Part shown: piece by piece, positions 1 to 7,554 of the stretch
How the letters are laid out: every line of letters begins with the position of its first letter
Numbering within the stretch: the stretch's first letter is position 1
Source: Methyloversatilis sp.
Lineage (GTDB): Bacteria > Pseudomonadota > Gammaproteobacteria > Burkholderiales > Rhodocyclaceae
Length of the DNA: 64,000 nt
Assembly: GCF_030698125.1 (NCBI RefSeq)
Contig: NZ_JAUYNV010000033.1
Coordinates: 1 to 64,000, forward strand
Direction: 5' to 3'
The notes under the pieces: generated by a model
Seen by the model: the letters and a program-made list of their open reading frames with translations, nothing else
Database searches by the model: none
What the model was told of the DNA's origin: nothing
Position numbers and translations under genes: made by a program

Positions 1-1595
1 AGATCCTCATCCTCGATTTCGGCTCCCAGGTCACCCAGCTCATCGCACGCCGTGTACGCGAAGCGCACGTGTATTGCGAAATCCACCCGGCCGACGTCAG
101 CGACGACTTCGTGCGCGGCTTCGGCGCGCAGGGCGTCATCCAGACCGGCAGCCACATGTCGGCCTGGGAGGAAGAAACCGACCGCGCGCCGCAGGCGGTG
201 GTCGAACTGGGTGTGCCGGTGCTGGGCATCTGCTACGGCATGCAGACCATGGCGCAGCAGCTGGGCGGGCGCGTCGAGGCGGGCACGGTGCGCGAATTCG
301 GCTACGCCGAAGTGCGCGCGCGCGGCCACACGAAGTTGCTCGACAGCATCGAGGATTTCCGCACCGAGCAGGGCCACGGCATGCTCAAGGTGTGGATGAG
401 CCACGGCGACAAGGTGACCGAGCTGCCGCCCGGCTTCAAGCTGATGGCGTCGACCGACAGCTGCCCGATCGCCGGCATGGCCGACGAGGCGCGCCGCTTC
501 TATGGCGTGCAGTTCCACCCCGAAGTGACGCACACCGCGCGCGGCGCCGACATCCTGCGCAAATTCGTCCTTGACGTCTGCGGCTGCGCCGCCGACTGGA
601 TCATGGGCGACTACATCGAAGAGGCGGTTGCACGCATCCGTGAACAGGTCGGCGACGAGGAGGTCATCCTCGGTCTGTCCGGCGGCGTCGATTCATCGGT
701 CGCCGCCGCGCTGATCCACCGCGCCATTGGCGACCAGCTCACCTGCGTGTTCGTCGATCACGGCCTGCTGCGCCTGAACGAGGGGCAAATGGTGATGGAC
801 ATGTTCGTCGGCCGGCTGCATGCGAGGGTGATCCACGTCGATGCGTCCGACCAGTTCCTCGGTCACCTGAAGGGCGTCAGCGATCCGGAAGCCAAGCGCA
901 AGATCATCGGCCGCGAATTCGTCGAGGTGTTCAAGGCCGAGGCGGCGAAACTGAAAGCGGGCGGCGACGGCCACAAGGGCGCGTCCTTCCTCGCCCAGGG
1001 CACCATCTACCCGGACGTGATCGAGTCCGGCGGCGCCAAGAGCAAGAAGGCGACGGTGATCAAGTCGCACCACAACGTCGGCGGTCTGCCGGAAAAGCTC
1101 GGCCTCAAGCTGCTCGAGCCGCTGCGCGAACTGTTCAAGGACGAAGTGCGCGAACTGGGCGTCGCCCTCGGCCTGCCGCGCGACATGGTGTATCGCCACC
1201 CCTTCCCCGGCCCGGGCCTGGGCGTGCGCATCCTCGGCGAAATCCACCGCGAGTACGCCGACCTGCTGCGCCGCGCCGACGCCATCTTCATCGAAGAACT
1301 GCGCAACACCATCGACCCGGCCAGCGGCAAGAGCTGGTACGACCTCACCAGCCAGGCTTTCGCCGTGTTCCTGCCGGTGAAGTCGGTCGGCGTCATGGGC
1401 GACGGCCGCACCTACGAGTGGGTCGTGGCCTTGCGCGCCGTGCAGACGCAGGACTTCATGACCGCCCATTGGGCCGAACTGCCGCACAGCCTGCTCGGTC
1501 GCACCAGCAACCGCATCATCAACGAGGTGCGCGGCATCAATCGGGTGGTGTATGACATATCGGGTAAGCCGCCGGCGACGATCGAGTGGGAGTGA
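1..1595 (+). CDS. guaA: GMP synthase (glutamine-hydrolysing), 5' truncated by window edge
   Basis: In frame from base 3: [27 protein letters not shown] glutaminase motif; [11 protein letters not shown]-loop; C-terminus [20 protein letters not shown]. Confidence 0.98.
1581..1595 (+). repeat. Direct repeat / candidate att site (left), end of guaA
   Basis: ATCGAGTGGGAGTGA, identical to 7784-7798. Confidence 0.75.
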
Positions 1596-2120: not shown

Positions 2121-3218
2121 ATGATACTCGAGTCTTCTCTGACCGAACGGCAGCTGATCACGCAGTTTCTCGATGCCCTCCGAGAGCTGCCGGAGGTGCA
2201 TGCAGACCTGGATCATTTGGAGCCTATCGGTTCGACCGCCGATCGCGGGTATGACGCGCAGATCGACCTGCAGGTAGCGGGCAAGTCCTTCATCCTGCTG
2301 GTGGAGGCCAAGAAGGCCGTGTATCCGCGAGACGTTCGGCAGGTGATCTGGCAGCTCCGAGAGGCCCGCTACGGCCGGCTCAGGGGGCACGGCAAGGAAT
2401 CACTGTCACTACTGGTCGCCGAGTCCATCTCCCCCGGCGCCAAGGAACTGCTCAGAGATGAGCACGTCGGGTACTACGACAGCGGCGGCAGCATGTATTT
2501 GCCTGCGCCGGGGGCCTACTTCTACATCGACAAGCCTCCGCCCAAGACCCTCGCAAAGTCGGTTCGATCCCTGTTTTCCGGGCGACGCGCGCAAGTGCTT
2601 CATGCCGTGCTGGCCCAACATCAGGACTGGTTCGGCGTAAAGGAACTGGCCAAACGGGCAATGGTGTCACCTGCCACAGCCTCCCAGGTGCTGACGGAGC
2701 TTGAGCGTTTCGACTGGCTGGTGTCGCGCGGGCAAGGGCCGAGCAAGGAACGCCATCTTCGCGAGCCCGCAGCTCTGCTGGATGCTTGGGTGAAGCAACT
2801 CGCATCGATCCGCCCCCCGAACCTTCGTCGCTATTACGTGCCGGCCACTAAAGCAGACCAGTTGCTGGATCGGGTCGGCGAAGTCTTCGACGCCCATGAA
2901 GCCGGATACGCGATCAGTCACGAAGCCGCGGCACAGCGCTATTCCCCATTCCTCTCCGGCGTTTCCCAGGTGCGCGCCCGGCTGCTGAGCGGCTCCAACG
3001 CCGATGCGGCCATCGGTGAACTGGGCGCACGTGTGGTCGACGAAGGCGCCAACCTCGCCATCATCGAAGCTAAGTCGCCCGGCGACTTGCTCTTTCGCGA
3101 ACGAGTCGGCGGCATGTGGCTGGCCAGCCCGGTACAGGTCTATCTCGATCTGCTGCGCGGTGAAGGCCGCTCCAAGGAAATGGCCGAGCATCTACGCAAG
3201 GAAAGGATCGGCTTCTGA
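2121..3218 (+). CDS. AbiEi-like type IV TA regulator: winged-helix protein with PD-(D/E)XK-like N-terminal motif
   Basis: 365 aa; GVKELAKRAMVSPATASQVLTELERFDWLV wHTH; AQIDLQVAGKSFILLVEAKKAV nuclease-like D..ExK pattern; stop overlaps next start (TGATG). Confidence 0.7.
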   Translation: MILESSLTERQLITQFLDALRELPEVHADLDHLEPIGSTADRGYDAQIDLQVAGKSFILLVEAKKAVYPRDVRQVIWQLREARYGRLRGHGKESLSLLVAESISPGAKELLRDEHVGYYDSGGSMYLPAPGAYFYIDKPPPKTLAKSVRSLFSGRRAQVLHAVLAQHQDWFGVKELAKRAMVSPATASQVLTELERFDWLVSRGQGPSKERHLREPAALLDAWVKQLASIRPPNLRRYYVPATKADQLLDRVGEVFDAHEAGYAISHEAAAQRYSPFLSGVSQVRARLLSGSNADAAIGELGARVVDEGANLAIIEAKSPGDLLFRERVGGMWLASPVQVYLDLLRGEGRSKEMAEHLRKERIGF

Positions 3219-4114
3219 TGGCCAAACCCGCAACGCTCGACGGCTACAGCGACCAGTACACGCTCGATTGCGAACGCGTCCTCGTGACGTTGCTGCGCGG
3301 ACTGGGGCCGTGGAAGGACTCGGTCTACCTGGTCGGTGGCCTCACCCCGAGGTACCTGGTCGCCGCTCGACCGCCCGCGGTCCCAGCGCATGCGGGCACC
3401 CTCGATGTCGACATCGTGATCGACCTGCAGATCCTCGCTGACACTGAGGCGTATCACACGCTGGAGGACAACCTCAAGAAGATGGGCTTCGAGCGTGCCG
3501 AAAATGACGCCGGTAAGAAGCTCTCCTGGCGTTGGCAAGCCCGCACCGAACACGGTGCACTTATGGTGTTGGAGTTGCTCGCAGATGCACCTGATATCGC
3601 CGGCGGCAAGGTGCAGCCGCTGCTGACCGAAGGCACGATCTCGGCGTTGAACATCCCGCATTCGTCGATTGTCTTTGACCTCCATCAGGTCACCGAGATC
3701 CATGCCGAACTGCTGGGCGGCAACGGCGTGGCAACCGAGAAGGTCAAGCACGCCAACCTGGTCAGTTTTACGTGCTTGAAGTCGTTTGCGTTCGATCAGC
3801 GCTTCGAGCGCAAGGATGCGCATGACCTGATCTATTGCATCGAGCACGCACCCGAAGGGTTGGACGCGGCGGCCGCAGCTTTTCGTCAGGAGGTTGCAGG
3901 CAAACACAGTGCCGTGGTCGAAGCCTCGCTGGCGACCCTGCGCAGCCGCTTCGCGGGCGACGAAAAGACCGAGGGCTATCGAAAGGACGGCCCAGTATCG
4001 GTAGCCAAGTTCGAGCTGGGTGAGGGCGATGAGCCGGAGCAGCGTGAGGCGAGGGCGTTGCGGCAGCGGCAGGCGAGCGATGTGATTGAGCAACTCCTTG
4101 CTCGAATCGGATAA
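3218..4114 (+). CDS. Nucleotidyltransferase-like (AbiEii-type) toxin candidate
   Basis: 298 aa; VYLVGGLTPRYL ... AGTLDVDIVIDL (GG plus DxD pattern of NTase fold); translationally coupled to upstream gene. Confidence 0.65.
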   Translation: MAKPATLDGYSDQYTLDCERVLVTLLRGLGPWKDSVYLVGGLTPRYLVAARPPAVPAHAGTLDVDIVIDLQILADTEAYHTLEDNLKKMGFERAENDAGKKLSWRWQARTEHGALMVLELLADAPDIAGGKVQPLLTEGTISALNIPHSSIVFDLHQVTEIHAELLGGNGVATEKVKHANLVSFTCLKSFAFDQRFERKDAHDLIYCIEHAPEGLDAAAAAFRQEVAGKHSAVVEASLATLRSRFAGDEKTEGYRKDGPVSVAKFELGEGDEPEQREARALRQRQASDVIEQLLARIG

Positions 4115-4150
4115 ACGATCAAGTAGAAGAACGCATAAGAGGGGTAGCTC

Positions 4151-4749
4151 ATGACAGTCAGCATCCACAATTCCGATCAATACATGGCCAGTCTGCGGCA
4201 GATCATTGCCCAGGGGCGGAAACGGATTGGCTTGCTGGTCGGAGCGGGGCACCAGCCGACATCTTCCCGCCCGGCAGCGACAAGCCCTTGATTCCTGCAG
4301 TGGCGGGCCTCACCGATATGGTGGTGCAGGCGCTGACACCCGCCTACGGCAAGACCTTGGATGCCGTGCGGGCTGAGTTTGATACTCCGAATATCGAAAC
4401 GATCCTGTCGCGGGTGCGTAGTTTGGCCAGCGTCATCGGAAAGACGAAGGTTCATGACCTAGATGGGGAGGGGTATAAGAAGCTGAGCGAGGCGGTCTGC
4501 GAACAGATCGGTGCCATCGTCAACAAGCCGCTCCATGAGGGGCCTTCTCCGTACACAGAGTTTGTGACTTGGATCAGCGGTATAGGTCGCGAACACCCGG
4601 TTGAAATTTTCACCACCAACTACGACCTGTTGTTTGAGCAAGCGTTGGAACGCACGCGTGTCCCATTCTTTGATGGTTTCCGCGGTGCAAGTGAGCCTTT
4701 CTTCGACCCGTCTTCGGTTGCCTGTTGCCGCACACCGAAATGCACGTGA
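4151..4749 (+). pseudogene. SIR2-like domain protein fragment, frameshifted and 3' truncated
   Basis: Frame 1 MTVSIHNSDQYMASLRQIIAQGRKRIGLLVGAG; frame 2 APADIFPPGSDKPLIPAVAGLTDMV...PVEIFTTNYDLLFEQALERTRVPFFDGFRGASEPFFDPSSV; the two join at the G-run 4246-4249. Confidence 0.75.
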
Positions 4750-5842: not shown

Positions 5843-5858
5843 GCCCAGAATATTGGGC
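5843..5858. promoter_or_regulatory. hipBA operator candidate 1 (imperfect palindrome)
   Basis: GCCCAGAATATTGGGC. Confidence 0.55.
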
Positions 5859-5927
5859 GTTATCGGATTATTTGCCTGGTTTGGTGATTTTATCGCTCAT
5901 GCTCGACTTGTGCTCGGTGTCGTAAAA

Positions 5928-5943
5928 GCCCAATATATTGGGC
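5928..5943. promoter_or_regulatory. hipBA operator candidate 2 (perfect palindrome)
   Basis: GCCCAATATATTGGGC, perfect 16-bp palindrome 26 bp upstream of the hipB-like start; shares GCCCA..ATATTGGGCGTT with site 1. Confidence 0.7.
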
Positions 5944-5969
5944 GTTGAGTGCATGGAGTGCCTGGTTTA

Positions 5970-6302
5970 ATGAGCAAATTTGTCATGCCCCAACAAGCCA
6001 CCGAGCAGGTTGTCCAGCTGGGTCAGCGCATCCGGGTGGCGCGGATCCGGCGCGGCTGGTCGGTCGCCGATCTCGCCAGCAAGGCGGGAATCAACCGGAA
6101 CACGCTCACGGCGCTGGAACTCGGCAAGCCCGGTACGGCGGTCGGCGTGTGCTTCACGGTACTGTGGGCACTCGGCCTGGACAAGTCTCTGGACGCTGTT
6201 GCGGATCCCGACAGCGATCTCCACGGCAAGGCGCTCGAAGCGTCGCGCCGCCCTACGCGGGCGGGCAAGGCCCGCAAGGCGATCGACGACTATGACTTCT
6301 GA
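5970..6302 (+). CDS. hipB: HipB-like HTH antitoxin
   Basis: LGQRIRVARIRRGWSVADLASKAGINRNTLTALELGKPGTAVG helix-turn-helix; overlaps hipA start. Confidence 0.85.
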   Translation: MSKFVMPQQATEQVVQLGQRIRVARIRRGWSVADLASKAGINRNTLTALELGKPGTAVGVCFTVLWALGLDKSLDAVADPDSDLHGKALEASRRPTRAGKARKAIDDYDF

Positions 6303-7554
6303 GCGCGAAGCCTATGTCTACATTCAGCTACCCGGCACGTTGGAAACGGTGCCGGCAGCGCTGCTCAGGGTGCAGACGCTGCCCGACGGCATGCAAATAG
6401 GGCGGTTTCGCTACGGCGACCGCTACCTTCAGCGCCAAGAGGCGGTTGCACTCGATCCGTTCCAGCTGCCTCTTGCCAGGGAAGTCTTCGAGTTCACCCA
6501 GCTCAAGGGGATTCCCGGTGCGGTTCGGGACGCCGGCCCCGACGCCTGGGGACGGCGCGTGATCGAACACAAGCTCGAGCGCAGCGCGGCTGACCTCCAC
6601 GAAATCGACTATCTGCTACAGGGTCCGCAAGACGGGGCAGGGTACTTGAGCTTCGGGCTGAAAGCCGAACCGCCCGCGCCCAGGCGCCAGTACAACCGCA
6701 CGCACCAGTTGGCCGAGCTGATCGCCGCTACACAGGCGATCGAAGAGGGCCGCCCGGTGGCCGCCCATCTGCTCGAACAGCTCGATCCTGGCACCAGCAT
6801 GGGTGGTGCGCGGCCGAAGGCCACGATCGAGGACGCGCAAAGTCTCTGGCTCGGCAAGTTTCCCGCCAGACATGACCGCTTCAATCTGCAGCGGGTCGAA
6901 TTTGCGACGCTCGACCTGGCTCGGAGATGCGGCCTGAATGTCGCACAGGCGCGGCTCGAGCCCGTTGGCGAGAGCGACGTGCTGATGCTGCAGCGGTTCG
7001 ATCGCGACTACACCGACAAGGGTTACCTGCGCTTCGGTCTCGTCAGTGGCCTGACCGTGCTCGACTGCGGTGATAGCCACCTGGACCGGGAACGTTGGTC
7101 CTACCCGTTGATGGCCGATAACTTGCGCCGCTGGTCCGACAAGCCGGAAGCCGACTGTGCCGAACTCTTCAGGCGTATGGTCTTCAATGCCGCCGTGACC
7201 AACAACGATGATCATCCGCGCAACCACGCTCTGCTACGCAGGCAGAAGGGATGGCGGCTGTCTCCGGCCTACGACCTCGTGCCCGCACCCGTGGTCAGCC
7301 TGGAGAGGCGCGACCTGGCCTTGACCGTCGGCGACTACGGTCGCACGGCCAGCCTCTACAACCTCCTGTCGCAGGCGGGGCGTTTCGGCTTGTCGGCGGA
7401 AGAGGCGCGCGGGCAAATCGATAGACTCGTCGATATCGTCCGGCATTGGCGCGACAGCTTCTTCGCCTGCGGCGTGTCAGCCAGGGACATCGACTACATC
7501 GCCCCGGCCATCCTGCCTGATTGCTTCTTCTTCGACAGGCGTCCCGATGCGTGA
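6292..7554 (+). CDS. hipA: HipA-family serine/threonine kinase toxin
   Basis: GTSMGGARPKATI, NNDDHPRNHALL catalytic loop, LSPAYDLVPAP; ATG at 6292 overlaps hipB stop. Confidence 0.9.
   Translation: MTSEREAYVYIQLPGTLETVPAALLRVQTLPDGMQIGRFRYGDRYLQRQEAVALDPFQLPLAREVFEFTQLKGIPGAVRDAGPDAWGRRVIEHKLERSAADLHEIDYLLQGPQDGAGYLSFGLKAEPPAPRRQYNRTHQLAELIAATQAIEEGRPVAAHLLEQLDPGTSMGGARPKATIEDAQSLWLGKFPARHDRFNLQRVEFATLDLARRCGLNVAQARLEPVGESDVLMLQRFDRDYTDKGYLRFGLVSGLTVLDCGDSHLDRERWSYPLMADNLRRWSDKPEADCAELFRRMVFNAAVTNNDDHPRNHALLRRQKGWRLSPAYDLVPAPVVSLERRDLALTVGDYGRTASLYNLLSQAGRFGLSAEEARGQIDRLVDIVRHWRDSFFACGVSARDIDYIAPAILPDCFFFDRRPDA

Follow-up and report, generated by a model that had tools for sequence, protein, structure and literature searches.

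The closest described relatives of the locus studied here are the AbiE and MenAT type IV toxin-antitoxin systems, in which two overlapping genes encode first a regulator and then a nucleotidyltransferase. Nucleotidyltransferases of the AbiEii type are defined by four motifs, hGG, DxD, a KLxAaxxR-like motif and +DxxD, and the relatives of AbiEi-AbiEii include the COG4861-COG4849 pairs (Dy et al. 2014, PMC3985639). A second point of comparison is offered by conserved regulators associated with defence, namely the WYL regulators BrxR/CapW, of which BrxR accompanies diverse defence systems (PMC9122601), and RptR, which has a conserved binding site and is found with type I restriction systems (PMC12255303). 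The control of defence operons is poorly known.

Here we analysed a stretch of 64,000 nucleotides (hereafter the window) from Methyloversatilis sp. (assembly GCF_030698125.1, contig NZ_JAUYNV010000033.1, positions 1 to 64,000, forward strand), in which a pair of genes precedes the remnant of a SIR2 gene. We propose that the pair is probably an AbiE-like, type IV toxin-antitoxin-like module that forms the constant, self-regulated head of defence operons with exchangeable cargo.

The gene pair and its kinship to AbiE

The pair consists of the following features:

Positions 2121 to 3218, + strand: gene 1, 365 aa, intact, a candidate autorepressor and antitoxin, with a PD-(D/E)XK fold at residues ~1-136, a wHTH at ~142-213 and an AbiEi_2-like C-terminal domain at ~215-360 (from Pfam, PADLOC, alignment, AlphaFold and Foldseek)
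Positions 3218 to 4114, + strand: gene 2, 298 aa, intact, an AbiEii-like nucleotidyltransferase, with motifs GG (40-41), DxD (63-65), KxxAaxxR (188-195) and KDxxD (199-203) placed by alignment

The original prediction had described these two reading frames, overlapping by TGATG, with a SIR2-like frame 36 bp further on the same strand behind a purine-rich ribosome-binding region. This arrangement is present as claimed, and the accompanying assignments of PD-(D/E)XK/wHTH, nucleotidyltransferase and SIR2 domains are borne out by Pfam, PADLOC, Foldseek and motif alignments. The proposed likeness to AbiE also holds, resting on the four motifs of gene 2 and on the AbiEi_2 domain, which is matched by 27 of 34 gene-1 homologues (E<=0.01).

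Judged by alignment, gene 2 has the complete set of four AbiEii-defining motifs of PMC3985639, and residues G40, G41, D63, D65, K188, A191, R195, K199, D200 and D203 are invariant in an alignment of 29 homologues. The Pfam AbiEii model (PF08843) gave no match above threshold to the gene 2 of the window, which has no other Pfam match of its own, and it matched 7 of the 29 homologues, at best with 3.7e-5. The structure model of gene 2 is poor (pLDDT 66), a Foldseek search with this weak model returned only non-significant matches resembling pol-lambda and pol-beta, and sequence searches found no solved relatives.

Gene 1 is better modelled (pLDDT 87). Its wHTH region matches IclR/MarR families in Pfam at about 1e-4, and its own AbiEi_2 match is weak (18.2 bits, under the 21-bit cut-off). 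Foldseek matches to its model include EndoMS/NucS (probability 0.99-1.00, E 0.006-0.02), and the alignment shows D45 together with E62-x-K64 in about 90% of homologues. Both the core fold of the model and the conserved D...E-x-K signature support a PD-(D/E)XK domain at the N-terminus. Nuclease activity is nevertheless doubtful, because some homologues have lost E62 or K64. Two further Foldseek matches, to the aminoglycoside nucleotidyltransferase ANT(2'')-Ia, suggest a nucleotidyltransferase-like fold in one of the gene 1 domains, probably the C-terminal one.

To place the pair among its relatives, gene 2 was used as a query against 85,462 species genomes, which yielded 78 loci. The complete census holds 85 related loci, 86 with the window, and 75 once near-duplicates are removed; since it was seeded by similarity to the gene 2 of the window, close relatives are over-represented in it. 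Genes were called by a simple open reading frame rule, followed by tblastn correction for known cargo only, and many of the loci are contigs of metagenome-assembled genomes. Gene 1 lies directly upstream of gene 2 in nearly all loci where the contig permits, as it does on plasmids of beta- and alphaproteobacteria. The pair is uncommon, with gene-2 matches (E below 0.001) in 26 of 399 random genomes of the order, many of them only distant. A phage-borne origin was considered and ruled out, given that none of 50,697 phage records matched the pair and that it is almost absent from viral contigs, with only two relatives there.

Substitution patterns indicate purifying selection on gene 2, with a dN/dS of 0.13 against locus L027 and 0.05 against L041, and on gene 1 in the comparison with the more distant L041 (0.08); the value of 0.45 for gene 1 against the near-identical L027 rests on few changes. 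The pair of the window differs from that of the congener G005, which carries L027, by a dS of 0.03-0.06. Because the adjoining dehydrogenase gene shows a dS of 0.25, this points to recent transfer or recombination of the pair between the two genomes.

Like AbiE and MenAT, the pair thus comprises two overlapping genes with the regulator first and the nucleotidyltransferase second, the nucleotidyltransferase bearing motifs I-IV and the regulator a wHTH and a C-terminal domain that AbiEi_2 matches weakly in the window. In contrast to these systems, its wHTH is not at the N-terminus of the putative antitoxin but follows a domain of ~140 residues with a PD-(D/E)XK fold, its gene 2 scores below the Pfam AbiEii threshold in the window, and it heads operons with exchangeable defence cargo. 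On sequence and model evidence, the best reading is an AbiE-like pair with an extra PD-(D/E)XK domain. The likeness to BrxR/CapW and RptR is one of arrangement: no Pfam match to a WYL domain was found in gene 1 or its homologues, we see no relation between these regulators and gene 1, and the latter differs from them in being paired with a nucleotidyltransferase, in having a nuclease-fold domain and in sitting directly in the operon.

A conserved promoter between palindromes

Upstream of gene 1 we identified an ordered array of elements:

Positions 2037 to 2052, palindromic, no strand: operator palindrome 1, TTCACTGCGCAGTAAA (family consensus TTYRCTGNNCAGYRAA), a candidate operator
Positions 2055 to 2060, + strand: -35-like element TTGTCG, at a fixed offset from box 1, with a TTG-type hexamer in most of 71 loci
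Positions 2066 to 2077, palindromic, no strand: central palindrome, CCGAATCTTCAC (family consensus CCGAATATTCGG), its centre 27 bp from that of either outer box
Positions 2078 to 2083, + strand: -10-like element TAAGAT, separated from the -35-like element by 17 bp
Positions 2091 to 2106, palindromic, no strand: operator palindrome 2, TTTACTGCACAGTAAA, where transcription is expected to start

Two 16-bp boxes precede gene 1 in 73 of 83 loci, spaced 54 bp apart in 71 and 55 bp in two, while the same two-box array occurred in none of 4300 shuffled upstream regions. When the 71 loci are aligned, a sigma-70-like promoter lies between the outer boxes, with a -35 of the TTG type and, after a spacer of 17 bp, a -10 that reads TAnnnT in nearly all of them (most commonly TATAGT, TAGAGT or TATAAT). 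The 71 loci also have the central palindrome in common, and positions 16-24 of the 38-bp interbox are for the most part strongly conserved. Only two sites in the 4.2-Mb genome match the outer palindrome, both upstream of gene 1, and such uniqueness suits an operator dedicated to autorepression. No viral contig contained an exact match to the double box.

This layout is the design expected of an autorepressed promoter. The inverted repeats of AbiEi (PMC3985639) and Rv2827c (PMC7319586) follow a comparable logic, and the palindromes of the window, as candidate gene-1 sites, would be their counterpart; they differ from the 23-bp inverted repeats of AbiE in their length of 16 bp, in their spacing of 54 bp and in having a third palindrome between them. 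By analogy with AbiE and MenAT, gene 1 may bind the palindrome array at its own promoter and repress the promoter that it would share with the genes downstream. It may also neutralise gene 2, a putative nucleotidyltransferase toxin of the AbiEii kind, and its PD-(D/E)XK domain could sense or cut foreign DNA.

Exchangeable genes in the third position

Behind the pair, the window contains the following features:

Positions 4115 to 4150, + strand: junction between pair and cargo, 36 bp, with a purine-rich stretch before the SIR2 start
Positions 4151 to 4749, + strand: SIR2 remnant in the cargo slot, frameshifted near 4246-4252, with its HerA and KTSC partners absent

The SIR2 gene had been described as degraded, and its reading frames agree. 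From the ATG at 4151, the first frame encodes 34 SIR2-matching residues and stops at 4292, and the second frame (4246-4749) matches PADLOC model PDLC04094 (E=1.3e-64) over model positions 31-190 of 399 only. The intact SIR2 of a congener is homologous up to window position 4721, about half-way through the protein, and the first 12 kb of the window contain no HerA gene. In that congener (G070, locus L144), the SIR2 gene, which shares 90% identity with the fragment over its length, precedes HerA and KTSC genes, and genes 1 and 2 are absent from the genome. Because blastn similarity between L144 and the window covers 4140-4721 (84%), starting just before SIR2 with none in genes 1 and 2, the comparison indicates that a SIR2-HerA system became attached immediately after gene 2 and brought its ribosome-binding region with it. 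Relatives of this SIR2 on five plasmids (47-56% identity) belong to operons with a HerA-like ATPase, four of the five also with KTSC, and one of the HerA partners matches PADLOC HerA with 1e-160. The window fragment resembles SIR2-HerA (Nezha-like) systems in that the PADLOC model that fits it best also matches SIR2 in intact SIR2-HerA-KTSC operons, but it differs from them in being frameshifted and cut and in lacking HerA and KTSC.

The nearest relative with the same set of genes, L027, carries a shorter N-terminal stub of SIR2 that is in frame up to its end. Since this breakpoint differs from the lesions of the window, SIR2 was lost by different events in the two genomes. We rejected mere assembly error as the cause of the decay: it could account for the frameshift, but it would leave both the truncation and the differently truncated L027 copy unexplained.

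Among the 86 loci, SIR2 occurs behind the pair only in the window and, as a stub, in L027. The original prediction had inferred a possible composite system with SIR2 as its third effector, and these two adjacencies are what speaks for it. Against it, homologues of genes 1 and 2 regularly lack a SIR2 neighbour, the very finding that the original prediction had named as its refutation; SIR2 is missing behind the pair in every other locus tested, and intact SIR2 operons exist without the pair. A fixed pair-plus-SIR2 system therefore has almost no probability left; the census, together with the closest intact SIR2 in the pair-free SIR2-HerA-KTSC operon of G070, rules it out. What stands of the proposal is that the third gene is an effector-like member of what would be a single transcription unit. 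The adjacency is not accidental in kind either: because in other loci the third slot is filled by many unrelated kinds of defence gene, SIR2 is best regarded as one exchangeable cargo.

Identified same-strand cargo follows the pair, usually at a distance of no more than 20 bp, in 42 of the 75 dereplicated loci (about 57%). The cargo is a 305-aa Mrr-type nuclease in 17 of these loci, a 1006-aa caspase-helicase in 12, HamA in two and an RtcR/PspF-type CARF protein in two. Single cases are a DISARM-type methylase (DrmMII) followed by MzaC, a DruE-like helicase, the SIR2 of the window, an 876-aa PD-(D/E)XK protein, and genes of 258, 318, 361, 393 and 1855 aa. Whole systems often lie behind the Mrr or caspase-helicase gene, including Qat (for example L021, L042, L044 and L046), Gabija (L065, L084 and L085, with a different GajA in L077) and Hachiman (L048 and L081), so that known defence genes among the cargo and followers comprise GajA/GajB, HamA, QatA-D, MzaC, RtcR_PspF and the HerA-partnered SIR2. 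Qat, Gabija, Hachiman, Mza, Druantia and Rtc systems are thus seen as cargo behind the pair in its relatives, but they are also known without it, and to our knowledge the pair is not listed as a component of any of them. In the open-access literature searched, we found no described pair-plus-defence header.

The cargo has been exchanged repeatedly. On the tree of the pair, sister loci differ in what they carry, as in L053 with caspase-helicase and Qat next to L081 with Mrr and Hachiman, and the tree implies at least 11 changes among four cargo types. The cargo has also decayed repeatedly. Truncated stubs recur behind an intact or nearly intact pair (the window, L027, L043, L058, L069, L075 and L080), so that the pair, in the manner of an addictive module, tends to survive the loss of its cargo.

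This behaviour raises the question of whether the pair is an ordinary addiction module of the AbiE/MenAT type residing in defence islands, whose followers are independent neighbours that exploit a stable landing place and read-through and have no functional link to it. Consistent with this, 26 of the 75 dereplicated loci are devoid of cargo, and the pair can thus exist by itself; it survives decayed cargo in the window, L027, L069, L075 and L080; and AbiE-like pairs adjoin SIR2-HerA or share the same site in congeners. Gaps between pair and cargo are mostly -3 to +17 bp, but tight same-strand spacing is not unusual by itself, being found in 80 of 184 other gene pairs of the islands, and spacing alone is therefore no proof of a functional link. 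Our argument rests instead on the contrast between the two sides of the pair and on the recurrence of the same cargo. Tight same-strand neighbours are found downstream in 32 of 73 cases and upstream in 4 of 66 (p=2e-7), a bias that independent neighbours do not readily explain; ATGA overlaps recur; two cargo families recur widely at fixed spacing; and close Mrr homologues coincide with the pair, which lies directly upstream in both genomes of the class samples that have an Mrr homologue of >=75% identity. We consider a purely addictive pair rather unlikely, if still a serious contender.

The recurrence of three-gene sets with Mrr and with the caspase-helicase could also mean that the pair and its follower make up an obligate tripartite enzyme (pair-Mrr, pair-caspase-helicase or pair-SIR2): having sensed phage, the pair would activate its partner protein directly, by transferring a nucleotidyl group or by cutting DNA. 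Loci with the pair alone, a congener with an intact SIR2-HerA and no pair, and the well-known partners of HamA and RtcR, which have no need of the pair, make this improbable.

A self-regulated head with exchangeable cargo thus remains our preferred reading. The sequences themselves show that the two genes stay together, that the motifs and the layout of operator and promoter are conserved, and that cargo is exchanged and decays; the mode of action is inferred. By analogy with AbiE and MenAT, infection would relieve the repression and neutralisation exerted by gene 1, perhaps when its PD-(D/E)XK domain meets foreign DNA or when gene 1 is depleted. Released gene 2 would then modify tRNA or another target and cause growth arrest, and cargo cotranscribed behind gene 2 would be expressed more strongly. 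In the window, the cargo would have been the leading gene of a SIR2-HerA system; that system has since decayed, and the self-maintaining pair has persisted. A bolder version, which we hold tentatively and at somewhat less than an even chance, is that the pair and its fixed operator-promoter form a command module of immunity, sensing infection and switching on or releasing whichever unrelated effector fills the slot; if so, effectors would be swapped while control stays constant.

A head with swappable cargo suggests a shared control unit for bacterial immunity. In many beta- and gammaproteobacteria, the constant head with its recognisable operator stands before Qat, Gabija, Hachiman, Mrr, caspase-helicase and other cargo, and it therefore makes it possible to test directly whether many immune systems are under the control of a single regulator family. 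Pair and operator also provide a search handle for undescribed defence genes, such as the 1006-aa caspase-helicase and the cargo genes of 258, 318, 876 and 1855 aa. The former, a fusion of a Peptidase_C14 caspase-like domain and a HamB-like DEAD helicase directly behind the pair (L042:8909-11926), has homologues in L035, L041, L044, L046, L053, L071, L093, L104 and L111, often with Qat genes next to it, and may be an undescribed defence effector. Four cargo genes tight behind the pair (L097:8908-9681, L099:3611-9175, L109:8900-9853 and L086:5957-8584) are candidates for new defence genes; three are without a PADLOC match, one is a PD-(D/E)XK protein with a weak DruK match, and that of L099 contains a phage-integrase-like stretch.

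The surrounding site in Methyloversatilis and its congeners

Just upstream of the pair lies guaA (window 1-1595), a gene whose end is known as an integration hot spot for genomic islands. No clean empty site was found in the congeners, each of which has different genes ahead of the short-chain dehydrogenase gene. Immediately behind its own dehydrogenase gene, the window carries an HTH gene followed by a gene for a HipA_C protein (5949-7554), resembling a HipBA toxin-antitoxin pair, with AATATTGGGC-type palindromic repeats upstream of it at about 5850-5950. This block is absent in three congeners, in which the dehydrogenase gene is followed by DNA matching the window from 9240 onward.

The corresponding position ahead of the dehydrogenase gene is occupied in G005 (L027:8926-10303) and G273 (L154) by what appears to be a regulator of the canonical AbiEi type, behind which L027 has an AbiEii-like nucleotidyltransferase, and for this reason the site looks like a turnover site for nucleotidyltransferase toxin-antitoxin modules. 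In G070, a divergent AbiE-like pair (L144:9581-11253) sits beside the intact SIR2-HerA-KTSC operon.
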